In this document: piece after piece, positions 6,796 to 38,080 of the stretch
Layout of the letters: the number at the start of each line of letters is the position of its first letter
How positions within the stretch are numbered: the stretch's first letter is position 1
Source of the DNA: an uncultured Acetobacteraceae bacterium
Lineage (GTDB): Bacteria; Pseudomonadota; Alphaproteobacteria; Acetobacterales; Acetobacteraceae
NCBI GenBank assembly: GCA_903918315.1
Contig: CAIXEA010000118.1
Span: 1-38,080 of the forward strand
DNA length: 38,080 nt
Direction: 5' to 3'
Program-made: the position numbers and the translations under genes
Notes under the pieces: model-generated
The model's database searches: none
What the model saw: the letters and a program-made list of their open reading frames with translations, nothing else
Told to the model about the DNA's origin: nothing

Positions 6796-8406
6796 ATGCA
6801 AGCGGATTACGTCATCGTGGGCGCCGGTTCGGCCGGCTGTGTCCTGGCCAATCGGCTCACCGAGGACCCCAACACAAGGGTCATCCTGATCGAGGCCGGC
6901 GGGCGCGATACCAACCCGCTGATCCACATTCCCGCCGGCTATATGAAGCTGCTGGATCACCCGACCCTCACCTGGGGCTACAAGACCGCACCGGATGACG
7001 GCGTGAACGGGCGCAGCATCGCCTATCCCCGCGGCAAGGTCCTCGGCGGGTCCTCCTCGATCAATGGCATGATCTATATCCGCTCCCAGCCGGAGGACTT
7101 CGACCACTGGGCGCAACTCGGCAATCGCGGCTGGTCGTGGGACGATGTGCGGCCTTTTTTCGACAAGGCGGAGAACTGGGCCGGTCCGGCCACGCCCAGC
7201 CACGGCAAGGGCGGGCCGCTCAACACCACCGTCATCGCCGACAAGCCCGAAATCTGTCAGGCCGCCATCGAGGCCGGTCAGCAGATCGGCCTCGCCTACC
7301 GGGAGGACCTGAACGATCTGCCACATGGGCTGGGCGATCATATCGGCTGGATCCAGCAGACCCGCCACGGGCGGCGCCGGGCCAGCGCGGCGGCGTCGTA
7401 TCTGCACCCCGTGATCAAGCGCCCGAATCTGTCGGTGATCACCGGTGCGCTGGTGCATCGCGTCCTGTTCGACGGCACCCGCGCCACGGGGGTCGCCTTC
7501 TCCCGCGGCGGCGCGATGGAGCGGGCGGATGCGGCCGGGGAGGTCATCCTGTCCGGCGGGGCCATCGGTTCCCCGCATATCCTGCAATTATCGGGCGTCG
7601 GTGATCCCGATCACCTCGACCGTATCGGCGTGCCGGTGCATCACGCGCTGAAGGGCGTGGGCAAGAACTTCCAGGACCATTTCATCGTGCGCGTGTCCGC
7701 CGACATCCAGGGCGCGCGGTCGCTGAACGAGCGGTCCCGCGGCCTGGGCCTGGTCAATGAGGTCCTCCGCTACGTGCTGACCGGCAAGGGATTGCTGACC
7801 TATGGGGCGTCGCTGATCGCGGGCTCGGTCAAGGTGCTCCCGGAATCCGACACGCCGGACATCCAGGCCATGTTCGCCCCCGGCAGCTATGGGCCCGGGC
7901 CGGTGCGGGAACTGGACACCAAGCCCGGCATGACCGGCGGCATCTGGCAGATGCGCCCCTTGAGCCGGGGTTCTGTCGAGGCGCGCAGCAACCGGCCGGA
8001 GGATCAGCCGGCCATCAACCCCCGCTATCTGGACGATGAACGCGACCGCCGCGCCGCCATTGGCGGCCTGCGCTTCCTGCGCCGGCTGTTCGCGGCGCCG
8101 GCCCTGGCGCGCTACGTCATCGCCGAGACCGCCCCCGGCCTCGCGGCCCAGTCCGACGACGATCTGCTCGACTATGCCCGCAGATCGGGGACGACGGTGT
8201 TCCATGCGAGTTGCTCGTGCCGGATGGGCCCCGATCCGATGTCGGTTGTCGATGACCAGCTTCGGGTCCATGGTCTGCGCGATCTGCGGGTGATCGATGC
8301 GTCGGTGATGCCGGCGGTCACCTCCACCAACACCAATGCGCCGACGATCATGATCGCCGAGAAGGGCGCGGCGATGATCCGGGCGGCGGCACGGGTCGCC
8401 GCCTGA
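6796..8406 (+). CDS. GMC-family FAD-dependent oxidoreductase (choline dehydrogenase-like)
   Basis: 536 residues, the usual length for bacterial GMC alcohol dehydrogenases. It shows the N-terminal FAD motif VIVGAGSAGCVLANRL, the GMC signature around GKVLGGSSSINGMIYIR, the second signature in GAIGSPHILQLSGVG, the active-site region TTVFHASCSCRMG (His as the presumed base) and the C-terminal TNTNAPTIMIAEKGA. Such enzymes oxidise primary alcohols or polyols. GGGAGGGG precedes the ATG. Only 26 bases separate it from the adenylating enzyme gene at 8433, so the two are probably co-transcribed. The specific substrate is not deducible; a choline role is not supported, as no betB or betI adjoins it. 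Confidence 0.93.
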   Translation: MQADYVIVGAGSAGCVLANRLTEDPNTRVILIEAGGRDTNPLIHIPAGYMKLLDHPTLTWGYKTAPDDGVNGRSIAYPRGKVLGGSSSINGMIYIRSQPEDFDHWAQLGNRGWSWDDVRPFFDKAENWAGPATPSHGKGGPLNTTVIADKPEICQAAIEAGQQIGLAYREDLNDLPHGLGDHIGWIQQTRHGRRRASAAASYLHPVIKRPNLSVITGALVHRVLFDGTRATGVAFSRGGAMERADAAGEVILSGGAIGSPHILQLSGVGDPDHLDRIGVPVHHALKGVGKNFQDHFIVRVSADIQGARSLNERSRGLGLVNEVLRYVLTGKGLLTYGASLIAGSVKVLPESDTPDIQAMFAPGSYGPGPVRELDTKPGMTGGIWQMRPLSRGSVEARSNRPEDQPAINPRYLDDERDRRAAIGGLRFLRRLFAAPALARYVIAETAPGLAAQSDDDLLDYARRSGTTVFHASCSCRMGPDPMSVVDDQLRVHGLRDLRVIDASVMPAVTSTNTNAPTIMIAEKGAAMIRAAARVAA

Positions 8407-8432
8407 TCGGCGCGAGAGGCCAGGGAACCGCG

Positions 8433-10016
8433 ATGTCACGGTTGGACGGTGCCAGGTGGGTCACGGCGCGCGATCAGCCCCCGGCGGCTGAGCGCTTCGC
8501 GCGCCCCTTGCATGCCATCCTGACCGCGGTCGCGGCCCGTGATCCCGACCGCCTGGCGGCGGTCTGCCGGGGGCAGGGCGTGACTTATGCGGCGTTCCTG
8601 GCGCGGGTGGGCGATCTGGCGCGGGGCATCGCGGCCGCCGCGGCGCCGCCCGGCCCGATGGCGGTGCTGCTCCCGCCCGGGTTGGATTACCTGGCCGCGC
8701 TGTTCGCCGGGGGCGCGGCGGGCCGGACGCTGCTTCTGCTCACGGGTTCGAACCCGGCCGAACGCAATGCCGCGCTGCTGGCGCAGGCCGGCGCGACGCT
8801 GGCTGTGTGCGGCGATGATCCGGGAGCCATCGGTGCCGTGGCGGGTCTGGCGCTTGTGTCGCCCCGTTCGGGGGAACCGGGCCGGGAGACGGACTGGCCG
8901 GAGGGCGGGTTGTCCATCGATGCCCCGGCGTTCCTGCTGCCGACATCCGGCAGCACCGGCACGCCCAAGCTCGTGGTGCATAGCCAGCGGACGATGGCGC
9001 AGCGCGCTTTCGTGCATATCGATCGCTTCCGCCTGACCCCGGATGACCGGGCGCTGTTCGATGGCGGGCACACGTCCTACGGCGCGCTGCGGGAGTTTCT
9101 GGCGGTGCTGTGTTCCGGCGGCACCGTGTGCGCGGTCGATCCGCGGGTCGATGGCATCCGGGGCATCCTGGATGCGATGCGCGCGCAGCGGGTGACGACG
9201 CTGCGGACCTTCGTGTCCTTGTTCCGCACCGTGGCGCGGCTGGATGGCGCGGCGGCGGCCTTCGCGTATATGCGCCTGCTGCGGTTTGGCGCCGAACCGC
9301 CGCTGGCGCCGGATATCCGCGCCGCGCGGGCCTTGGTGCCGCCGGGCTGCGTGATCGCCAATTCCTATGGCTCCACCGAAAGTATCAACTGCGCGTGGGA
9401 GGCGGGAGCGGACGATCTGGCCGATGGCGCACCGGTTCCCGCCGGCTGGATCGATCCGGATGGGGAATACCTGCTGGTGGATGACGACGGCGCGCCGGTG
9501 CCGGCGGGCATGCCGGGGGAGCTGATCATCAGCAGCCGCTACCAGTCGCCTGGGGACTGGCGGGATGGGCAATGCGATCAGGAGCGCTACCGGCCCGACC
9601 CCAGGGATCCCGCGCGCCGGCTCTTCGCGACCGGCGATCTGGCGCGCATCCAGGACGACAGGTCGCTGGTGATCCTGGGGCGCAAGGATCTGCTGGTCAA
9701 AATCAATGGCCAGCGCGTGGCGCTGCTGGAAATCGAGACCGCCTTGCTGGGTGTGCCGGGCTGCGCGTCCTGTGCGGTGATCGCTGCTCCGGGATCAGGC
9801 GCCGCGGGCGTGGAGGGGCTGACCGCGTTTCTGACGCCGGCGCAGCCGCCGGGCAGCGACCTGGCCGCGCGGGCCCGGGCCCATCTGGCCGCGCGGCTGC
9901 CGACCGCCATGGTGCCGCGGCATTGGCGGGTTATTCCCGCTTTGCCCTTGCTCCCCAACGGCAAGACCGATCGGCAGGCTTTGCTGGCATGGCCGGACAG
10001 CCGCGATCCGAGGTAA
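8433..10016 (+). CDS. Stand-alone adenylation (AMP-binding) enzyme, NRPS-like
   Basis: A 527-residue acyl/aminoacyl adenylate-forming enzyme. Core motifs in order: PTSGSTGTPK (P-loop, residues 170-179), NSYGSTE, LFATGDLARI, GRKDLLVKINGQRV, and LPNGKTDRQAL with the catalytic lysine of the C-terminal subdomain. The A8/A10 wording is closer to NRPS adenylation domains and D-alanine ligases than to acyl-CoA synthetases. There is no condensation or carrier domain in the polypeptide. A carrier-thioesterase protein follows at 10277, suggesting this enzyme loads that carrier in trans. Substrate specificity cannot be read reliably by eye. The upstream GMC oxidoreductase could act on the same product or precursor. 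Confidence 0.9.
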   Translation: MSRLDGARWVTARDQPPAAERFARPLHAILTAVAARDPDRLAAVCRGQGVTYAAFLARVGDLARGIAAAAAPPGPMAVLLPPGLDYLAALFAGGAAGRTLLLLTGSNPAERNAALLAQAGATLAVCGDDPGAIGAVAGLALVSPRSGEPGRETDWPEGGLSIDAPAFLLPTSGSTGTPKLVVHSQRTMAQRAFVHIDRFRLTPDDRALFDGGHTSYGALREFLAVLCSGGTVCAVDPRVDGIRGILDAMRAQRVTTLRTFVSLFRTVARLDGAAAAFAYMRLLRFGAEPPLAPDIRAARALVPPGCVIANSYGSTESINCAWEAGADDLADGAPVPAGWIDPDGEYLLVDDDGAPVPAGMPGELIISSRYQSPGDWRDGQCDQERYRPDPRDPARRLFATGDLARIQDDRSLVILGRKDLLVKINGQRVALLEIETALLGVPGCASCAVIAAPGSGAAGVEGLTAFLTPAQPPGSDLAARARAHLAARLPTAMVPRHWRVIPALPLLPNGKTDRQALLAWPDSRDPR

Positions 10017-10033
10017 GGGAACGGGTGTTGCCC

Positions 10034-10174
10034 TACCGTGTTCACACATCGTGGCAACGAAAATTCGTAAGGCAAGCAAAGCGACTTCTAACACGTCATG
10101 GCCCGGCTTGTCCGGGCCATGACGGTGTAGAGCAGCGCTGGCAAAAATCGTTCCCGCGATGTGTGAATCCAGTA
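10034..10174. mobile_element. MITE-like element with nested palindrome and 10-bp flanking direct repeat
   Basis: The ends are imperfect inverted repeats of about 33 bases sharing TAC.G..TTCACACATCG.GG.AACGA. The element is flanked by identical GGGTGTTGCC copies (10023-10032 and 10175-10184; one extra C on the left), which look like a target-site duplication. It encodes no protein and contains the 31-bp CGTCATGG palindrome at its centre. It lies between the adenylation gene and the carrier-thioesterase gene, where it could separate them transcriptionally. Non-autonomous transposition is inferred from structure; no matching transposase is in the window. Confidence 0.7.
10094..10124. repeat. Extragenic palindrome, short form
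   Basis: Perfect 13-base arms CGTCATGGCCCGG and CCGGGCCATGACG around a CTTGT loop. Same family as 1-80 and 22050-22080. It sits in the middle of the MITE-like element, so it either inserted there or is part of that element. Confidence 0.9.
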
Positions 10175-10276
10175 GGGTGTTGCCGGGGATGGGGGTTCCG
10201 CTACCATACTGCCGTTCAGGAACAGGACTCGACGGCATGAACCGCGATGGCCGGTAGCGTATCGGAAGGCTCTGAC

Positions 10277-11431
10277 GTGCTCATCAGCCCCGGGGCCCAG
10301 CACGCCGTCGCGGCGGTGAGCGAGGCCTGGCGGCGGGTGACCGGCGCGTCGCCGCGGCCCGGTGTGTCGTTTCAGGACTCCGGCGGCGACTCCCTGGGCC
10401 TGATGGAGCTTGTGTTCGTTCTGGAGCAGGCGCTGGGGGCGAAACTGCCTTTGGATGCTTTCCACGGCGGGTTGGCGGTCGCGGATATCGTGGCGCTGGG
10501 GTGCCGTATGGGGGGGGAATCGGTTCCGCCCTGCTCGGATGCATGCCCGACGCCGCCACCGGCTCCCATTTTCCTGTGCCCGCCGATGCACGGCGTTTCC
10601 CCCTATCTCGCGGCATTTCGCCGCCTCTGCGGCGATCGGGTGGGTGTGCTGACGGTCGATTATGGCTGCTGGCGGGATTGTCTGGTCCCGGGTTTCGACC
10701 TGGATCATCTGATCGCCCGCACCGTGGCGGCGGTGCGCGGCCAGCAGCCAGCCGGGCCGGTGGTGCTGGCCGCCTTCTCGGCCGGCGCAACGGTTGCCGC
10801 GGGCGCGGCCCTGGCGCTGCAAGCCAGCGGCCGCGCGGTGGTTCACCTGATCATTCTCGACGCCCCCGCGCCGGGCTGCGTGGGGCCGGACCTGACGGTC
10901 AGCGGGGCTGCCCAGCGGCCGGGCTTGGCCACCCGGCTTGCGCGCCTGCGCCAGGGCGGGCGCTGGCGCGGCGCGCTGGTTCGCCGCCTCGGGCAGGTGC
11001 TGGCGGTGCCGCTGGCGTCGCCCTGGATTCGGCCCGTCCTGCGGCACGCCGGCCGGTGGCAGCCCCGCCGGCTGGCCCAGGCGGATCTGGTGGGTATCAC
11101 GCAATGGACCGCCTATTACCTGGCGGAGCGGCTGCGCCAGCAGGCGTTCCGGCGCCATGTGCCTGTTGCCCCCGTGGGTGTGCCGTTTCCCCGGACCCAT
11201 CTGAGCCTGCTGCGATGCGCGTTTCGGGTCGCCGGCGCGGCGGCCGATTACGGGTGGGGGGGGTGGGTTGGCAGGCTGTCGATCATTCCGCTGGCGGGGC
11301 GTCATTTCACCATCATGGGGGATGATGTGGCGGCCACCGCGGCCGCCTTCGTCGCGGCTGTCACAGCGCTGGATCCCCGCGCCATGGCGGCGGGCGGGGC
11401 CGGAACCGGGATGCGCCCGCGCGAGATGTAG
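10277..11431 (+). CDS. Carrier protein-thioesterase didomain (PCP-TE)
   Basis: 384 residues from GTG 10277, chosen because GGAAGG lies 7 bases upstream; an ATG at 10247 in the same frame lacks a clear Shine-Dalgarno. Residues about 1-75 are an acyl/peptidyl carrier domain with the phosphopantetheine site DSGGDSLGL (Ser39). A proline-rich linker follows (PTPPPAPIF), then an alpha/beta-hydrolase thioesterase with nucleophile motif AAFSAGA (Ser168; Ala-Phe-Ser-Ala-Gly instead of the common GxSxG), a probable acid in LIILDAPAP and His in AGRHFTIMG near residue 343. This is the C-terminal half of an A-T-TE synthetase, with the A part encoded at 8433-10016. The product is unknown. The MITE-like element lies just upstream. 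Confidence 0.85.
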
Positions 11432-19567: not shown

Positions 19568-20227
19568 TCAGGCGATGATCGTTGCCGGGCCCTGGGTGTC
19601 CCAGATCAGGCCGGCGACGGTGCTGACGGCGCGGCCGATTTCTTCCAGCCGCACGATGTCGGCGATGCGCGGCGCGGCCTGTGCCATGGCATGATCCGAC
19701 AGGATTTTCTCCAACGCGCCCGTCGCCGCGGCCAGACCGAGCAGGAGCGTGTCCCGGGGCGCGGGGGTTTGATTGTTGAACAGGACCTCGGTCAGGCGGG
19801 CCAGGGCTTCCTGTTCTTCCTGTCCGGATACGGGCGGATAGGCCCGGGTCGAAAAGAACCAGAGAAAGCGCCGATCTTCGCGGCGCAAAATACCGGCCGT
19901 GGCCAGGCGTTCGAGGATCTGCTCCGGCAGTTCGGCCCGATTGCGTGACAAGGTCTCGATCCACCAGGTGCTGGGATGGGGCACCGTGCTGGTGGCGATC
20001 TGGCTGAGAACGTCATCGAGCAGGCTGTCCCCCGTGGGGGTGGTGTCGACGGCGAACAGCGCCTGCAGGTCGCTGTCCAGGCGCCCCATCAGCGACAGTT
20101 CCATCAGCACCCCGCCCATGATCGCGACATTCGCGACCGGCATGACGGCCGGTTTGAGCTCCCCCACGCTGTCATCGAGCATGAGCACCACGATTTCATC
20201 GGCCAGGGTCAGATGTCGCATGGTCAT
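19568..20227 (-). CDS. GPP34 (GOLPH3-like) domain protein
   Basis: 219 residues that follow the GPP34/Golgi phosphoprotein 3 pattern: LTLADEIVVLMLDD near the N-terminus, an alpha-helical block GGVLMELSLMGRL, the PTGDSLLDDVLSQIA segment, WIETLSRNRAELPEQILERLATAGIL, then ARLTEVLFNN and a C-terminal helical half. In eukaryotes this domain binds phosphatidylinositol-4-phosphate on Golgi membranes; bacterial members, best known from actinobacteria, have no settled function. The ATG overlaps the STAS gene stop by ATGA (20224-20227), so the two proteins are made together. It converges on the GluRS gene with a 24-base gap. Confidence 0.8.
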   Translation of the reverse strand: MTMRHLTLADEIVVLMLDDSVGELKPAVMPVANVAIMGGVLMELSLMGRLDSDLQALFAVDTTPTGDSLLDDVLSQIATSTVPHPSTWWIETLSRNRAELPEQILERLATAGILRREDRRFLWFFSTRAYPPVSGQEEQEALARLTEVLFNNQTPAPRDTLLLGLAAATGALEKILSDHAMAQAAPRIADIVRLEEIGRAVSTVAGLIWDTQGPATIIA

Positions 20228-28262: not shown

Positions 28263-30138
28263 GACGGTCCTCCTTCTTCCGCAGATGCGCGGCGATCGAG
28301 GCCAGGGCCGTCGGGGTCATGCCCTGCAACCGCGCGGCGGCACCCAGGGATTCCGGACGGAAGCGGGTGAGTTTGTCGGTCACCTCCGCCGACAAGCCGC
28401 CGATATCGCTGAAGGTGACGCCGTCCAGGGACACGGTTTCTTCCCGCCGGAAGCGGCGGATATCCGCCTCCTGGCGGTGCAGATAGCCGGCATACCGCGC
28501 CTCGGCCCGCAGTTGCGCTGAAGCGCGGGGCGGCAGTTCGTTCAACCATGGGAAAGCGGTCTTCAGTGTCTCCCACTCCACGGTATCCTGCCCGGCGGTC
28601 TCGAGCAGTGACCGCCACTTGCCGTCAGCCCGGGCCGGCATACCCAGGCGCGCCCATGCCGCCGCCGATAATCCTTCGGTCCTGGCCCGCTCCAGCGCCG
28701 TGTTCACAGTTGCATGGTATGCTGTGAAGGCTGCCGCGCGTTCCCGCCCCACGCACCCCCATTCCATGCCCCGTGCCGTCAGCCGCAGATCGGCGTTATC
28801 AGCCCGAAGGCTGAGCCGAAACTCCGCGCGGGAGGTGAACATGCGATAGGGCTCACTGACGCCTTGAGTCGTCAGATCGTCCACCAGCACGCCGATATAG
28901 GCTTCCGAGCGGTCCAGCCGGGCCGGCGCGCTGCCGCCGGCGAGCCGGGCGGCGTTGATGCCAGCGAACAGGCCCTGGGCCGCCGCTTCCTCATAGCCCG
29001 TCGTGCCATTGATCTGACCGGCGAGGAACAGACCCGGGAGCGCCCGAAGCTCCAGCCCCGCGGTCAGCGCGCGTGGGTCGACATAGTCATATTCGACCGC
29101 ATAGGCCGGGCGCAGCATCGTTGCATGTTCCAACCCCGGGATGGTGGCCAGCATCGCCCGCTGCACGTTTTCAGGCAGACTGGTGGAAATGCCGTTGGGA
29201 TAGATGGTGTTGTCGTCCAGGCCTTCCGGCTCCAGGAATATGTTGTGGCTCTGGCGGGCGGCGAACCGCACGACCTTATCCTCAATCGACGGGCAGTAGC
29301 GCGGCCCCACCCCGGTGATGTTGCCGGCGTGGATGGCGGAGCTGTGCAGATTCTCACGAATGATCGCATGGGTGGCCGGCGTCGTGGCGGTGACGCGGCA
29401 TTCGATCTGGCGATTGCTCAGACGCGTCGTCAGGGTGCTGAACGGCTCCGGATCCGCATCGCCGGGATCCGCGTCCAGGCCTTTCCAGTCGATGGTGCGC
29501 CGATCCAGCCGGGCGGGGGTTCCCGTCTTCAGGCGACCCATTGGCAAACCCAGGCGCGCCAGCGTCAAAGCGAGGCCAATCGACGGGGCTTCACCCACGC
29601 GGCCTGCCTGGGTCTGCTGGTTGCCGATATGGATGACCCCGCGCAGGAATGTCCCGGTGGTGAGCACGACGGCGGCGCAGCGCACCCGCGCCCCATCGGC
29701 GCAGGTCACGGCGGCGAGGCGGCCATCCGGTCCGATTTCCAGATCCTCCACCGCGCCGGCCCGGAGGGTCAGGCGGGGGGTTTCGTCCAGCAACTGGCGC
29801 ATGGCGCGGCGATACAGGCTGCGATCCGCCTGGGCCCGGGGGCCGCGCACGGCCGGCCCCTTGCTCCGGTTCAGCAGTTTGAAATGAATACCCGCCCGAT
29901 CGGCGGCCTGGCCCATCACGCCGTCGAGGGCATCGACCTCCCGCACCAGATGGCCTTTGCCGATCCCGCCGATGGAGGGATTGCAGGACATTTCGCCGAT
30001 GGTTTCAAGCTTATGGGTGAGCAGGAGGGTACGCGCACCGGTGCGCGCGGCCGCGGCCGCGGCTTCGCACCCGGCGTGGCCCCCGCCCACCACAACGACA
30101 TCGAAGCGCTCGGTCATTCCTGCTCTCATGCCTGCCAT
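28225..30138 (-). CDS. mnmG: tRNA uridine-5-carboxymethylaminomethyl modification enzyme MnmG (GidA)
   Basis: FAD-dependent partner of MnmE that modifies wobble U34 of several tRNAs. 637 residues with the FAD motif [30 protein letters not shown], the signature [11 protein letters not shown], a second signature around [13 protein letters not shown], and the C-terminal helical domain ([17 protein letters not shown]). The start could be 30138 or the later ATG at 30117 (MTERFDVVV), which sits closer to the FAD motif; neither has a convincing Shine-Dalgarno. Downstream is mutS, not the rsmG-parAB genes usual after mnmG near the replication origin. Confidence 0.96.
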
Positions 30139-30206
30139 GGCGCGCGTTTAGCGGGAAATGGCGGCTATGGCTACGGAATCGGCGTTGCGCGCGCCGCGGC
30201 CAGTGG

Positions 30207-31184
30207 TCAGCCGGCCGCCAGCCAATCCTCGATCAGGCGCCGGGCGATGCTGTCCACCCGCGGCAGGGAAAACCCATGCTGCTCGGCGTTGCGCATCTGA
30301 TCGCGGGAGAACCATTTGGCGTCCAGCAGCTCTTCCGGATCGATGGTGATCTCTTCGGTGAGCGCTTCGGCGTAGTAGCCGAGCATGATGTTGCCCGGGA
30401 ACGGCCAGGGCTGGCTGGAGTGATAGTGCACCGCGCCGCATTGCACGCCGACTTCTTCCAGCACTTCCCGCCGGACGGCTTCTTCCAGCGTCTCACCGGG
30501 CTCCACGAAGCCGGCCAGGGTCGAATACATGGTCGCGCGCGGGAAGCGGGTGGAATGACCGAGCACGGCGCGATCCCCCTTGTGCACCAGCATGATCACC
30601 GCCGGATCGGTGCGCGGGAAATGCTGGGTGTCGCAGGCCGTGCATTGCATGACATGGCCCGACGACTTGGCATCGCAGACCCCGCCGCAGACGCCGCAGA
30701 AGCGGTGCCGTTGGCGCCAATGCAGCAGGCCGCGGGCATGCGCCAGCACGGATGCTTCCGGCTTCGGCTCCCCCCAACCGACGGAGCGCAGATCGACGAA
30801 CGTGCCGAGAGCGGCCGGCAGCAGCGGCACGGGATCATCCTCGGCGCTGAGGTCGATCGCGAACACCGCCTTATCGTCGAGCAGGCCGAGAAACGCCCAA
30901 TTGCCGCCCTTCATGCGCAGCGCGGCGGCCATTTCGCCGGAAATATAGACCGCTTCCGGCGTCGCGCCCGGCTCGGTGCCACGCACCAGATTGCGGGTGC
31001 GCCAGACCGGCACGAACAGGCTGTCGGGGTTGTCGAGCTGTTCCGCGATCCAGGCATGGTCTTCGCGCCGCGTGGCAATGCGGTCGAGCGGGGAGGAGGA
31101 ATAAACATTGAGCCGGCTGGCCAGGATCAGGGTCACGACGCGGTCCGTTCGATCGAGGGTTTCTGTTGCGGCGAACCGTGCCAT
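30207..31184 (-). CDS. nudC: NAD(+)/NADH diphosphatase (NudC), also RNA deNADding enzyme family
   Basis: 325 residues. A zinc ribbon is formed by CGVCGG (Cys163, 166) and CTACDTQ (Cys181, 184). The Nudix box runs from Gly225 (GFVEPGETLEEAV...REVLEEVG), and the NudC specificity motif SQPWPFPGNIM follows it. The family hydrolyses NADH/NAD and removes NAD caps from RNA. It ends 68 bases upstream of mnmG on the same strand; the gap contains no gene. It is divergent from the giant repeat gene. Confidence 0.95.
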   Translation of the reverse strand: MARFAATETLDRTDRVVTLILASRLNVYSSSPLDRIATRREDHAWIAEQLDNPDSLFVPVWRTRNLVRGTEPGATPEAVYISGEMAAALRMKGGNWAFLGLLDDKAVFAIDLSAEDDPVPLLPAALGTFVDLRSVGWGEPKPEASVLAHARGLLHWRQRHRFCGVCGGVCDAKSSGHVMQCTACDTQHFPRTDPAVIMLVHKGDRAVLGHSTRFPRATMYSTLAGFVEPGETLEEAVRREVLEEVGVQCGAVHYHSSQPWPFPGNIMLGYYAEALTEEITIDPEELLDAKWFSRDQMRNAEQHGFSLPRVDSIARRLIEDWLAAG

Positions 31185-31204
31185 GCGGCCTGCCCCGGGG
31201 CAAC

Positions 31205-31376
31205 CGTGCTTTTGGGGACGATAATTTTAATACTTTGTTAACCAATTCTCCGTTTGTTCGCAAAAATGTATGAAAAAAACCGATTTTCGGCGCGCCGCGT
31301 AAACCTTTTGTAAACTTTCTGCTGCGAGACTTGCTGTTACCCGGCTCGCGCCAGCCCGGCCGCCACAGGCGGCGGG
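31205..31376 (+). promoter_or_regulatory. AT-rich upstream region of the giant repeat gene, with helical-turn direct repeat and 5' hairpin
   Basis: In a GC-rich neighbourhood, 31215-31325 is strongly AT-rich and lies between divergent nudC and the repeat gene. GTAAAC occurs at 31299-31304 and 31310-31315, an 11-base period with similar flanking T-runs, as expected for a protein binding one DNA face. A GCCGCC/GGCGGC hairpin, extended by CCC/GGG, follows at 31355-31376, within the likely 5' UTR. Exact -35/-10 boxes are not clear to me. Confidence 0.45.
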
Positions 31377-31417
31377 ACGCGGTTCGGCTTCATCCGCCCG
31401 GCAAGGACGCTTTCATC

Positions 31418-34400
31418 ATGGCAAGACTGACGATCACCCAGGCTCTTTTCAGCAACAGCTCAGGCCTCTCTATCCAGGATACCGCGGCCAATATCTTACG
31501 TGCGGCGGCCAATCCTGCCCTGTTGCAGCGGGTAACGCAGTTCAATCTGACCGCGAATGCCACCGTAAGCGCCGCATCAGCACAGATTTTGGCTGGTCTG
31601 GGGAGGAAATTCTCCCTGAACGGGCATCAGCTCACGGTGCAGGACTCGGTGGCGGCGCTGAGTGATCCGGGCAACCTCGGGGCACTTGGTCTGGCAACGT
31701 CGATCGTGGCCGCCGATACCGCGGACCACCTGCTGGCCGCGGTGGGCGGCACGGTGCTGCATCAGGTGCAGGCGGTCACGCTGTCCACGAGCGCAGTCCT
31801 CGACGCCGCCGGTTATGTGTCGCTGGAAAGTCTGCCGGGATTTTCCGTCGCGAGCGGGCAAACCATTACGATCGCCGATACGGTCGCCAACCTGCTGACG
31901 CTGACATCGGTGCCGATGCTCCCGGCGGTGCAATCCGTGCAGGTGACCGCCAACGCGACCATCAATGTCGCGTCTTTGAATCAGCTATTCGCCTTGCCGA
32001 ATGTCACGCTGCAAACCGGCGCGGCGCTGACCGCCGAGGATAGCCTGGCCAATCTGTCCGGCCTGTCACCGGCCGAGCAGCAGGTGGTCCATGACGTCGT
32101 CGTCCATGATACGGTGGCTGCTCTGGTCGGGGCGACGGCGCTGCCAACCGGCACGATCGGGATCGTCGCCGTGCTGGACAACGGTTCGTACACTGTAGCC
32201 CAGGCGCGGGCGTTGTTGGCCTTCGGCCAACCCCTGACTCTGCTGCCGTCGCAAGGAGCGGCCACGCTTCAGATCACCGATACGCAGCAGCATATCACCG
32301 ACGGTCATGACGCGCTGGCGTCACTGGAAGCGGATGGTCCGGTAACGGTGACACCCAACGACCAGTCGTCCGTGCTCACCGCCGCGCAGGCGGCTGCATT
32401 GTCGGTCGTATCCCCGGGGCTATCCGTCCAGGATACCGCGCCGGCCATCAGCGGCCTGGCTGGACAGATATTTGGCAAGGGCTTCGCTTCGATCACAGCG
32501 ACCTCCGGCACATTGTCCGGAACAGCGACGCAACTGCTGGACCCGACGCTGCACTATGGCTCTTCGTCGAACAGCCTGCTTTCGACGCTGTCCCAATCGT
32601 CAGGCAGCAGCGTTCCGGTGAACGCACAGCTGACTGGCGCGTCGACCGTGGACGCGGCGCATCTCACCGCGCTGTCGGTGCTGCCGGGGTTTTCTGTCGC
32701 GCCCGGGGCCACCCTGACAGTGGCGGACACGATCGGTGCGCTGATCGCGGCATCCGGGTTGATCCATTCCTTCGCCACAGCGGTGCTGGCGACCGATAAT
32801 GAGACGATGACCGCAGCGGCGGCGACGGTGCTCGCCGGCCTGTCGGCCGCGGTGGGGAGCGCCCAGTTCAGCCTGGGTGGTCATACCGTCACGATCAGTG
32901 ACGATGGCGCCAATCTGGCCGCACCCGGCAATGCCGCCGGTCTCGCGCTTGCCAGCGCGGTGACTTTGTCGGCCGCGTCGATCGTAAACGCCAGCCAGGC
33001 CGCCCATCTGATCGCGCTGGGAACAGTGTTCTCCACCGGCGGGATGAGTCTGACAATCAGTGACACGGCGGCGAACCTCGCGACACTGGCGAGTTCGGCG
33101 TCGACCCTGAATGGCTGGGGTGCCCAGCTACAGCTGGCCGCGGATGTGACTTTAACGGTCGCGGCTGCGCATGCTCTGCAAGCCTTCTCCACGTTCGGAC
33201 CAGGATCGCCCCATCTGACCATCGCCGACACCGCGGCGTCTTTGCTGGCTGCCGGAGCGGGCACATTGGCGTTGGCCGGCAAAGTGCAACTGTCACAGCC
33301 AGCGACCCTGACAGCCGCCACTGCCACCGCCCTGCTGGCACTCCCCGCTTTCAGCACCGCCGGTCAGACAGTCACCATCGCGGACACCGCGGCGCATCTC
33401 GCGTCACTGCCAGGCACCCTGACCAACTGGGCCGCCGCGGAGACATTGCTTTTCAACGTGCCCTCGGATGCGATTGTAACGGCAACGCAGTTCACCGCGC
33501 TGCTGGCACTGCCGCATCTGACGTCCATCACGGGCCTGACCGTCGCCGATACCGCGGCCAATCTGCTGGCCGCCAGCACCGTGCTGGGACAGGCCACGCA
33601 TATCCAGCTCAGCACCCAAGCGGCCCTGACCGTCACCCAGGCCGAGGCTTTGATCGGACAGGCGAATTTCCAGACCGGCGCCGCCCTGTCGATCGCTGAT
33701 ACCGTCCCGAATCTGCTCACGCTCGCCGGCGCCGTCCTGCCCAATCACACCACCATCCTGCAGGCCACACCCATCGGGCTGTCCGCCGATGCGACGGTCA
33801 CGGTCGCGCAGATGGCGGCATTGCAGGCATTGCCGGAATACACCCTCTTCAGCCGCAATGGACACGCATTGATCCTGAGCGACTCCGGTAAGCATCTCGC
33901 CGCCTTCGTCCCGGACACCGTGGCACCCCCCACCAGCTATGTGCTGGCCGGAGACACCACGCTCACCACAGCCCAGGCCAATATTCTGGCAGCACGGAGC
34001 GTGACGACCAACGACAATGCCGTCACCGTCGCCGACACGCCCAGCGCATTGTTGGACGCCGGTAACAGCGCCGGTCTCGCACTGGCTTCCGCGATCACAC
34101 TCTCGGGCGACGCCACCGCCACCGCGGCGCAGACGAGCGCATTGTTCGCCAATCCGTATTTCAACACAGGCGGGCATGCCCTGACCGTGTCCGACACCGC
34201 AGCAGCCATCCTGGGCCTGAGCCCCAGCATCGATGCCGCGGTCACAACCCTCGCGCTGGCCGCATCCCAGACCGTCGATGTCGCGACCCTGCTCGGTCTG
34301 ACGCAGCTGGGTATCAAATTCTCCCTCGCCGGGCATACCCTGACCGTCGCCGATACCGCGGCCAATCTGGCCACTTTAAACAGCCTGGAAACCAGTCTCA

Positions 34401-34774
34401 CCAGCGCTGAAGTACTGACCACCAGCGCCAGCGTGAACGCCGTAACGGCCACGCTGCTGGCAGCCCTGCCGCACTTCTCACTCGCCCCCGGCGCGACGCT
34501 GACGATCGTGGATACCGAGGCAGCCCTGGCAGCCTTGCCCCTCGCGGTGTCATCGATTGCCACCAGTGAGCAGCTGGCACCCGGTTCCACGGTCACATTG
34601 ACCGTGGCACAGGCGCTGATTCTGGTCGCCTTACCCGGCTTTTCGAACGCCGGTTCCACCATCGTGGTGTCCGACACGCTCGCCCATCTCGCGGCCAATG
34701 GCTGGCAGTCCATCGCGACGGGCTACATCGTCAAGGATAATGCCGAGGCGCTCGTTGCCCAGGCCGGAGGTTAG
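31418..34774 (+). CDS. Giant tandem-repeat protein, N-terminal 1,118 codons (VxDTAANL repeats), ended by in-frame TAG
   Basis: The ATG at 31418 has AAGGA about 10 bases upstream; an in-frame TTG at 31331 gives only an arginine-rich tail and spans the 5' hairpin. The N-terminus (MARLTITQALFSNSSG) has no signal peptide. The whole chain is built of about 22 divergent units averaging about 50 residues, each with [VI]-x-D-[TS]-x-A-x-[LI] followed by a helix, then ALxALPxFS-type and beta segments, e.g. LTVADTAANLLAA, LTISDTAANLATL. No cysteine and few Lys/Arg residues are present. Such features suit a secreted or surface protein exported by type I secretion, whose signal would be C-terminal and lies outside the window. 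The TAG at 34772-34774 interrupts a repeat unit. Confidence 0.85.
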   Translation: MARLTITQALFSNSSGLSIQDTAANILRAAANPALLQRVTQFNLTANATVSAASAQILAGLGRKFSLNGHQLTVQDSVAALSDPGNLGALGLATSIVAADTADHLLAAVGGTVLHQVQAVTLSTSAVLDAAGYVSLESLPGFSVASGQTITIADTVANLLTLTSVPMLPAVQSVQVTANATINVASLNQLFALPNVTLQTGAALTAEDSLANLSGLSPAEQQVVHDVVVHDTVAALVGATALPTGTIGIVAVLDNGSYTVAQARALLAFGQPLTLLPSQGAATLQITDTQQHITDGHDALASLEADGPVTVTPNDQSSVLTAAQAAALSVVSPGLSVQDTAPAISGLAGQIFGKGFASITATSGTLSGTATQLLDPTLHYGSSSNSLLSTLSQSSGSSVPVNAQLTGASTVDAAHLTALSVLPGFSVAPGATLTVADTIGALIAASGLIHSFATAVLATDNETMTAAAATVLAGLSAAVGSAQFSLGGHTVTISDDGANLAAPGNAAGLALASAVTLSAASIVNASQAAHLIALGTVFSTGGMSLTISDTAANLATLASSASTLNGWGAQLQLAADVTLTVAAAHALQAFSTFGPGSPHLTIADTAASLLAAGAGTLALAGKVQLSQPATLTAATATALLALPAFSTAGQTVTIADTAAHLASLPGTLTNWAAAETLLFNVPSDAIVTATQFTALLALPHLTSITGLTVADTAANLLAASTVLGQATHIQLSTQAALTVTQAEALIGQANFQTGAALSIADTVPNLLTLAGAVLPNHTTILQATPIGLSADATVTVAQMAALQALPEYTLFSRNGHALILSDSGKHLAAFVPDTVAPPTSYVLAGDTTLTTAQANILAARSVTTNDNAVTVADTPSALLDAGNSAGLALASAITLSGDATATAAQTSALFANPYFNTGGHALTVSDTAAAILGLSPSIDAAVTTLALAASQTVDVATLLGLTQLGIKFSLAGHTLTVADTAANLATLNSLETSLTSAEVLTTSASVNAVTATLLAALPHFSLAPGATLTIVDTEAALAALPLAVSSIATSEQLAPGSTVTLTVAQALILVALPGFSNAGSTIVVSDTLAHLAANGWQSIATGYIVKDNAEALVAQAGG

Positions 34775-34777
34775 TTG
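34766..34777 (+). promoter_or_regulatory. Amber codon with overlapping ribosome-binding-site-like GGAGG and TTG
   Basis: GGAGG (34766-34770) encodes the last glycines before TAG (34772-34774), and TTG follows at once (34775-34777). GGAGG to TTG spacing is 4 bases, short but possible. It allows stop-and-restart translation of the downstream half; equally the GGAGG could simply be Gly codons by chance. Confidence 0.4.
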
Positions 34778-37700
34778 ATAGCCGGGGCGGATTCTGTCTC
34801 GCTGGCTGGCGATTCCGTTATTGATACAATATCGGTTGCTACGCTGGCCGGGATCGCTCATTTCACCCGCGATGGCGCGTCGCTTGTCGTGGCTGACAGC
34901 CCCGACGCGATCGCGGCTGCAGCCTCGGACATTCTGGCGATCGCGAGCGCGGCGCGGGTGGTATCGTCCAGTACGCTGTCGGCGGCGCAGGCGGAGCAGC
35001 TGGTACCCCTGGCGATAGCTGGGAAACTGACATTCGCGGGCAGCAACCACCTGAATGTCGCAGACAGCGCCGCGAATATTCTGGATTCAGCCAATGCCGA
35101 CGGTGTGGCGCTGGCTTCGGTCGTTACCATCATCGACAGTGCCGCCAACCTCGCGACAGCCGCGATGCACGCTTGGGGCAACGTCCATCCGCTTTATGAG
35201 CTGATCGCGAATGATACGGTCACGGGCGCGCAAGCGGCGGCGCTCGCGGCTCTCGGGGGGGCCTTCTCCCTGCGCGGACATGGGCTGACCATGGCCGACG
35301 ACGCAGCCGGCGTGACCAGCAACGCGGCGGCCCTGAACGCCCTGGGAATCACTGCCCAGGTCACCGACTCGGTCGCCGATATCGACGCGGCCATGGCGGG
35401 CTTGCTGGCGCTCGGAACCCGCTTGGCATCGGTGCAGGTGACCAACGCCGGCCCCGTGGGTGCGATGGCCGCGGGGGCTCTTTACCCCTTGGCCAGTCTG
35501 ATCATCGGCGGTCCAATCGCGGTGGCGGACACCGCGTCCGCCGTGGGCGTCAATGGCGCGCACCTCCTGGCCCTGGGGCAGCATCTTGGAACCATTACTT
35601 TAACGGATATCGGATCCGTTGCGGCCGGCGACGCTATCGGTCTGCTTCCACTGGTGGCCAGTCTGGCCGGCGGGACATCGGTCTCGGTGCTGGATACGCA
35701 GGCGGACGTCCTCTCTCAGGTGTCTGGCCTGGTATCGCTGGGCGCGGTTCTCGGGACAGTGTCGTTGTCCGACGGCACCGTAACCGACGCGGCGACCGCC
35801 GCCGCCTTGCTGCCGATTCAGGCGCATTTCGGGGCGGGGGTCCAATTGACCGTCCAGGACAGCATCGCGGCGATCAGCGCTGATATCGTGCCGCTGACGG
35901 CGCTACAGACCGACGGCCGGATCGCCAGCATAACGGCCGGACAGGAGACGGTGGCCAACATCCTCGCGCTGCCAGGGGGTTCTCTGCCCGCGTTGCAAGC
36001 GGCCGGCGTCACAGCGACCGTGGCCGACACCGCCGCCCACGTAAACCAGAATCTGGATGCGTTGGAGGCGCTGCACCTGCTGCTGACCGGCATTACGTTA
36101 ACAAACACCGGCACCCCGACCTTGTCGGTGACCCTCACCCAACTGTCGGCCGACGCAGATGTGCTGGCCTTGGTGACCTCAGGCTACACCCTGGATATCA
36201 GCGACACAGCGGCGGCGATTCAGGCGGATCTGACCAGTGGCAGCTCGCGGATTCTGGCTCATCTCGGTGGTATCACCCATATTGTCGCCAACGATGGCGG
36301 CACTGTGAGCCTGACCGGGTCCACCTTGCTGGCGCCGGGCGTTGACGACGGCACTGGTTCCGCTTTGGCCAAATTCCTGGGCGGCTCGGTGGTTGTGACC
36401 GACGTCGCCGTCGCTGATATCGGGCTGATCACCGCGCTGATGTACCCACCCACCAGCGTCACGATCGCCGACACGGTCACGCATATCCAAGGCGATCTGG
36501 CGTCCGGGACCTCGGCTTTGGTCGCGGCGCTGGCATCGATCGCAGGCATCTCGGTCATCGGCGGCGGCACCATCACGCTGCAGGAGACGCAGGTCCTTGC
36601 CGCTGGTGTCGACGATGGCGCTGGCTCCGTCTTCAGTAAAATCAGCGGCGCCAGTCTGATGGTCACCAATGTGACGGTCGCGGATATCGGGACGATCGCG
36701 ACTCTCCCCTTCGCCCCCATCGCGATCGCGATGGCCGACACCGGCGCGGCCATCCAGGCGGATCTGACGGGGGGATCGTCGGGAATTCTGGCCAATCTGG
36801 GGACCATTTCGGGAATCCAGGTGACCGATGGCGCCCCCATCACGCTGACCGGCTCGCAAATCCTGGCTGCTGGGATCGATGACGGTCCCCAATCGGCGCT
36901 CACGAAACTGAATGGGGCCACAGTCAACGTGACGAACGTCACGGCGGCGGAGCTCCAGACGCTGGAAACCCGCACTGTCCTGCCAACGACGATCTCGCTA
37001 CTGGATTCGGCCGCGGGGATCCAGGCAGATCTGACGTCCAGCGGGGGATCGGCGATCTTGTCGAATCTGTCGCAAATCGGAACCATTGTGCTGACCCAGC
37101 CCGATACCATCACGCTGACGGCGGCCCAGGCATTGGAAACCGGCATGGATGACGGGCCTGGATCCGCCTTCGCAAAAATGACGGGGGCATCTTTGTCCGT
37201 AAACCAGGTGCCCGTCGCCGACATTGGCGCGATCCGCGGGCTATGGGTGACGCCGCAACACATCACGATCAATGATACAGCGGCCCAAATACAAAGCGAC
37301 CTGACCGCCCACGTGTCGGCGCTGGTTGGCGCGACAAGCGCGATCCTCAGCATTAAAGTCGCCGACGCGGGTACGATCGGCCTGACGGTGGCGCAGATCA
37401 GGGCCTCCGGGATCGATGATGGCCCCGGCGCGGTCCTTGGGTTAATCACCGGAGGCTCCATTGCCGTCACCAACGCGGCCATTTCCAATGTTGCGGCTTT
37501 GACGGCGCTGCCCGTGCGACCCAACACCATCACAATCATTGATAGCCAGGCGCACTTGCTCAACGATCTCGCGCTGGGTCAGCATTCGGTTCTGCGGTCG
37601 GCCGACCCTTTGATCGACCACATCAAACTGAGCGATGCGGGCGTACCCGACTTTGCCCTCTCGCTTGCGGATATCGCGGCCGACAGCAGCTTTTTGCAGC

Positions 37701-38080
37701 GGATCACCACGCCCTACACAATCAGCCTGTCGGATACCGCGGCGGCCATCCAAGCGGATCTGACGTCCGGCACGCCCAAAATCACGGGGCTTCTGTCTTC
37801 ACTGCAATACATTGAGGTCACGGACAACGGCACAATCACAATGCCCCTCAGCCTCCTGCTGACAGCGGGCATTGACGACGGCGCAGCGTCGGTTTTTGGC
37901 AAAATGATGGACCTTGGTGGTCTGGCGGTGCAAAACGATGTGTCGGTGGCGGAATTTAGGACGTTGATGGCGTTGGGTGTTCCCCCGACCTCGGTCTTCA
38001 TCGTCGATTCCACCGCGCATTTACAGGCGGACCTTGCTTCACCCACATCCGCGATCGCCGGCAACATCGGTTCTGTCAGC
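34775..38080 (+). CDS. Giant tandem-repeat protein, continuation after the TAG (partial, runs off window)
   Basis: I read the frame codon by codon from 34775 to 38080: 1,102 codons, no stop. It continues in the same frame and the same repeat family as 31418-34774. The first motif after the TAG, LVVADSPDAI, is 53 residues after the last one before it (IVKDNAEAL), counting the TAG as one position, i.e. one normal unit. From about 36180 it changes to an 89-residue repeat. Cysteine-free, like the upstream half. Whether it is the second half of one protein (readthrough or a mutated stop), a separately started protein (TTG 34775), or a dead segment cannot be decided from sequence alone. The C-terminus is outside the window. 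Confidence 0.8.
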   Translation, partial: MIAGADSVSLAGDSVIDTISVATLAGIAHFTRDGASLVVADSPDAIAAAASDILAIASAARVVSSSTLSAAQAEQLVPLAIAGKLTFAGSNHLNVADSAANILDSANADGVALASVVTIIDSAANLATAAMHAWGNVHPLYELIANDTVTGAQAAALAALGGAFSLRGHGLTMADDAAGVTSNAAALNALGITAQVTDSVADIDAAMAGLLALGTRLASVQVTNAGPVGAMAAGALYPLASLIIGGPIAVADTASAVGVNGAHLLALGQHLGTITLTDIGSVAAGDAIGLLPLVASLAGGTSVSVLDTQADVLSQVSGLVSLGAVLGTVSLSDGTVTDAATAAALLPIQAHFGAGVQLTVQDSIAAISADIVPLTALQTDGRIASITAGQETVANILALPGGSLPALQAAGVTATVADTAAHVNQNLDALEALHLLLTGITLTNTGTPTLSVTLTQLSADADVLALVTSGYTLDISDTAAAIQADLTSGSSRILAHLGGITHIVANDGGTVSLTGSTLLAPGVDDGTGSALAKFLGGSVVVTDVAVADIGLITALMYPPTSVTIADTVTHIQGDLASGTSALVAALASIAGISVIGGGTITLQETQVLAAGVDDGAGSVFSKISGASLMVTNVTVADIGTIATLPFAPIAIAMADTGAAIQADLTGGSSGILANLGTISGIQVTDGAPITLTGSQILAAGIDDGPQSALTKLNGATVNVTNVTAAELQTLETRTVLPTTISLLDSAAGIQADLTSSGGSAILSNLSQIGTIVLTQPDTITLTAAQALETGMDDGPGSAFAKMTGASLSVNQVPVADIGAIRGLWVTPQHITINDTAAQIQSDLTAHVSALVGATSAILSIKVADAGTIGLTVAQIRASGIDDGPGAVLGLITGGSIAVTNAAISNVAALTALPVRPNTITIIDSQAHLLNDLALGQHSVLRSADPLIDHIKLSDAGVPDFALSLADIAADSSFLQRITTPYTISLSDTAAAIQADLTSGTPKITGLLSSLQYIEVTDNGTITMPLSLLLTAGIDDGAASVFGKMMDLGGLAVQNDVSVAEFRTLMALGVPPTSVFIVDSTAHLQADLASPTSAIAGNIGSVS
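36203..38080 (+). repeat. Coding tandem repeat, 267-bp/89-residue period with DDG motif
   Basis: The Asp of the [SAN]-D-[TS] motif starts at 36203, 36470, 36737, 37004, 37274, 37541, 37733 and 38006: spacings 267, 267, 267, 270, 267, 192 and 273. The G-[IVM]-D-D-G motif falls at 36344, 36611, 36878, 37148, 37415 and 37874 (first Asp), with the same period. Each unit has DTAAAIQADLTSG-like, G-x-DDG-x-GSA-x-x-K-like and [VT]-x-DI-x-like parts. One unit (37541-37732) is 64 residues and lacks the DDG block. Units are diverged, so this is an old array. Confidence 0.9.

Follow-up and report, generated by a model that had tools for sequence, protein, structure and literature searches.

A giant repeat-protein gene of an uncultured Acetobacteraceae bacterium carries an in-frame TAG codon private to one draft genome

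In the draft genome of an uncultured Acetobacteraceae bacterium, a conserved repeat-protein gene of probably about 4,100 codons reads as interrupted by a single in-frame TAG that is private to this one genome. We take the stop to be either a young nonsense codon or, in the draft consensus, a mistake or a minority variant, a reading to which we assign a probability of about 0.78. Because relatives carry the gene without it, the stop most likely arose by recent mutation, or is a mistake in the sequence, and is unlikely to serve as a programmed control point. An earlier note on this DNA had listed recent nonsense mutation, programmed readthrough, and stop-restart as options. Recent mutation fits the evidence, and so does the assembly error that the note had posed as a refutation; readthrough is not supported, the stop being private and no decoding aid having been found.

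The window analysed here is the whole stretch of 38,080 bases that makes up contig C118, and its right edge is the contig end. The draft comprises 5.04 Mb in 241 contigs, with a contig break inside the giant gene. On the forward strand, the frame opened by ATG 31418 runs for 1,118 codons (31418..34771), a 5′ part whose sequence and start match the open frames of relatives, meets TAG at 34772..34774, and continues, as seen by translation and alignment, for another 1,102 open codons to the window end (34775..38080). The start is well supported by a GGCAAGGA stretch that lies upstream of the homologous ATG and is common to the four relatives compared; the alternative start TTG 31331 has no comparable backing from relatives.

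Much of the earlier description of this locus held up. An ORF and translation check that began at ATG 31418 and ran as far as the contig reaches returned one frame with a lone interrupting TAG, and the spacing of flanking motifs across the stop again counted to 53 residues. No frameshift accompanies the stop (the junction lacks an indel in eight of eight relatives), third-position GC content is alike on both sides within the window (GC3 0.77 before, 0.76 after), codon usage before the stop correlates with that of everything after it (r = 0.92), and cysteine is absent from either side within the window, with one occurring in the gene's continuation on another contig. TAG also ends the PCP-TE and permease genes, as the note had said, and GlnD as well, which makes three TAG-terminated genes among the 14 window genes tabulated. 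Elsewhere, the window encodes a GPP34 (Golgi phosphoprotein 3) family protein (19568-20227; Pfam, 140 bits), here in a bacterial genome, and clustered GMC oxidoreductase, AMP-binding enzyme, and PCP-thioesterase genes (6796-11431) that perhaps form a small biosynthetic cluster.

The last 69 bases of the window (38012..38080, forward strand) exactly match the opening 69 bases of contig C99 in a DNA search, and the giant gene continues there in frame. The overlap frame stays open for 1,915 codons to a TGA, 1,892 of them beyond the window, giving a complete gene of about 4,113 codons (1,118 + stop + 1,102 + 1,892) in which the stop is codon 1,119, at about a quarter of its length. The 69-base overlap, the shared frame, and the order seen in relatives are our grounds for joining C118 to C99. 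Identical ends of 69 bases within the giant gene are the pattern expected at an assembler break.

A gene for a PrtD-type permease/ATPase (TIGR01842, 588 bits against a cut-off of 510) starts 10 bases past the TGA on C99, and a gene for an HlyD-type adaptor (TIGR01843, 342 bits against 209) follows; both are intact, being open and full length. A PrtD homologue adjoins the giant ORF in 8 of the 12 stretches from relatives that were searched, and the other four (L044, L052, L053, L054) stop short of the gene end. One of the eight PrtD genes is cut by the stretch edge (L055) and another is fused to the giant ORF (L050; G031 C24:11000-30000), which at about position 1554 enters the last 366 PrtD residues in frame. 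The fused ORF lacks the giant protein's own C-terminal end, whether through a true deletion or through faulty assembly. A short way past the secretion genes, in the downstream direction, comes a gene for transcription termination factor Rho (L043, 9886-11286). The final 110 residues of the giant protein, which lie downstream of the TAG, appear similar by eye in this genome and the seven relatives compared, and no Pfam or NCBIfam family matched this end. SiiE, a giant Salmonella adhesin and type I substrate, carries a C-terminal secretion signal according to a passage of PMC5466336. Because PrtD and HlyD genes adjoin the giant gene and its last 110 residues are similar among relatives, the giant protein is probably exported by type I secretion and probably carries its signal, as SiiE does, at the C terminus.

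Comparison of the locus among relatives, which the earlier note had proposed, revealed no conserved stop. A junction-spanning profile (E 1e-20) matched 11 of the 33 genomes of the genus, including this one, and in this junction census and in the alignment with relatives TAG occurs here and in none of the other 10. In two of these (G018 and G030) the match is confined to the initial 286-295 of 401 profile positions, and the sequence past the junction is diverged. In the other eight, with the sides aligned separately, one sense codon exactly replaces the TAG, with identical spacing and no indel. The column itself is variable, with four residues among the eight relatives, and the next position is leucine in all eight; because L050 and L054 are very close in trees, the eight amount to about seven independent witnesses. 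In the six relatives whose fetched stretch spans it entirely (L045-L049 and L051), the gene is a single uninterrupted frame that measures 4,592 to 6,058 codons from stop to stop, and in the tenth named relative (L116), which lies outside the column alignment, it is open to the contig end. Two stops in the G032 match proved to be codons 2 and 4, just outside the open frame near a contig end.

Sequence beyond the stop appears as constrained as sequence before it. Given the downstream positional base composition, an unconstrained run of 2,994 codons should hold some 35 stops; the downstream part has none, nor is there any second lesion in these codons. In blocks beside the stop, comparison of this genome with L044, its closest relative, gives a pN/pS of 0.379 on the 5′ side and 0.437 on the 3′ side, compared with 0.387 and 0.450 for an intact pair (L044-L045), and against three other relatives it is 0.45-0.53 before and 0.48-0.51 after, all of these values being rough because synonymous differences are near saturation. 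Branch lengths, from trees built on blocks adjoining the stop (389 columns on its 5′ side, 366 on its 3′ side), are 0.267 and 0.322 for this genome and 0.244 and 0.278 for L044. Neither measure reveals relaxation or decay past the stop in these blocks, although L044, the nearest relative, is 60-64% identical there and too distant for a fine test of decay or for a direct dating of the stop. If the remainder were unconstrained, its freedom from further lesions would place the origin of the stop within roughly 0.3% divergence, where indels are taken to be 10% as frequent as substitutions, or within 1.9% where indels are left out, both figures being 95% limits under assumed rates; a real stop would probably be young. 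Unrelaxed constraint past the stop would equally be expected of a translated downstream part.

The family to which the gene belongs is patchy. It occurs in 11 of the 33 genus genomes, in 9 of 299 sampled family genomes (six genera), and in one of 385 sampled class genomes, which is this genome itself, the best few candidates per genome having been scored in the latter two samples. Among the 10 named loci, eight are called Acetobacteraceae or Rhodospirillales and two bear other names. Searches of Pfam, NCBIfam, and PDB sequences gave the protein no meaningful match (best E = 0.17 in NCBIfam and 1.2 in PDB). No related sequence was found in plasmids searched with the second half of the gene or in phages searched with the first half, one exact 24-base pattern had no match in viral contigs, and literature listings turned up nothing on the family.

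If the stop is real, translation would end after residue 1,118. Such a product is not expected to be exported because it would lack the conserved C-terminal end, the site of type I signals, and polarity may lower expression of the downstream transporter genes. That the stop is instead a mistake of consensus calling or assembly, or an allele of a minority strain, is possible though doubtful, and is counted within the probability given above. Consistent with this are the state of the draft, broken within the giant gene itself, the titling of all 10 named relatives as MAGs, and the lack of decay in the downstream part. A lone substitution error, on the other hand, would be rare, and DNA searches (E 0.001) of the genome found the junction only once, which makes a collapse of repeats there unlikely.

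Programmed readthrough of UAG into short and long secreted forms, as the earlier note had suggested, would agree with the persistence of frame and constraint past the stop. We nevertheless regard it as very improbable, because the stop is private (absent from all 10 relatives), release factor RF1 is encoded (485.6 bits against a cut-off of 423), no UAG-reading tRNA was found, and RNA folding is unremarkable; the short form, moreover, would be without the conserved C-terminal end. ARAGORN read all loci of the 44 tRNA matches and none has anticodon CUA, in a list that is incomplete because an isoleucine tRNA with anticodon GAT is missing from it. Folding gave z = -0.71 for the 201 bases spanning the stop and z = -1.52 for the 100 bases after it, and nothing in 30000-38080 matched Rfam at gathering score. 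Of the possible aids to readthrough considered, none turned up, be it a suppressor tRNA, a loss of RF1, an Rfam element, or a fold of the RNA. A UAG followed by U might be expected to terminate very well. A passage of PMC2680264 states otherwise, describing UAGU in E. coli as less favourable for termination than UAGG, a point on the side of readthrough, and we dropped the argument from stop context.

Termination at the TAG might also be followed by reinitiation at TTG 34775, which would yield two proteins from one gene. The layout is GGAGG-TTAG-TTG, with a start codon directly after the stop and a Shine-Dalgarno-like GGAGG (34766..34770, forward strand) 4 bases before the TTG; the eight relatives lack this string within 60 bases ahead of the TAG column. 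Among in-frame NTG codons, 17 of 2,823 in nine relatives and none of 272 in three pieces of this genome, the junction itself excluded, follow a 5-base string of this kind (GGAGG, AGGAG, or GAGGT) at a distance of 4-10 bases, and the density of GGAGG (8 in 12,339 bases, junction copy included) gives a chance of about 0.45% over the 7-position range. Such strings are probably used in this genome, since its PrtD gene begins behind GAGGAG. A 4-base spacer is short, however, and TTG is a weak start codon. Passages of PMC10666635 and PMC6728339 document reinitiation at very short stop-start distances, and an arrangement that chance would produce with a frequency of roughly 0.5% speaks for reinitiation here, but the motif was singled out post hoc. 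Because the open frame of eight of eight relatives has a leucine codon where the TTG stands, it need not be an evolved start, and because it is a conserved leucine position and the stop is confined to one genome, we retain restart as a rival that we judge unlikely. In that improbable event, the restart product would be 2,994 residues long and would retain the C-terminal end needed for type I export. It is less likely again that we are seeing a giant type I protein splitting in two through a fresh stop and a lineage-specific ribosome-binding string; were this true, the downstream 2,994 residues would be made and secreted alone while the first 1,118 residues remained inside.

On our preferred reading of a young private nonsense codon or an error, the stop codon itself is ordinary. 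A useful by-product is a patchy Acetobacteraceae family of repeat proteins, about 4,100 to 6,000 residues long, with their own type I exporter genes.

Compared with known systems, the locus resembles recent nonsense pseudogenes in its single lesion, the lack of any further decay seen, and the open orthologues of relatives, and differs from them in that the lesion itself is putative and the C-terminal part might still be produced via restart. It shares with the termination-reinitiation pairs described in passages of PMC6728339 and PMC10666635 a start directly after the stop and a Shine-Dalgarno-like string within the upstream part; unlike in those pairs, the second part is the rest of a single gene, which relatives keep open throughout. 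Finally, set against SiiE-type substrates, the giant protein has no meaningful match to a known domain and belongs to a patchy family, here seen within one bacterial family, with any export or adhesion putative, but like SiiE, as portrayed in a passage of PMC5466336, it is very long, repetitive, and accompanied by its own type I system.
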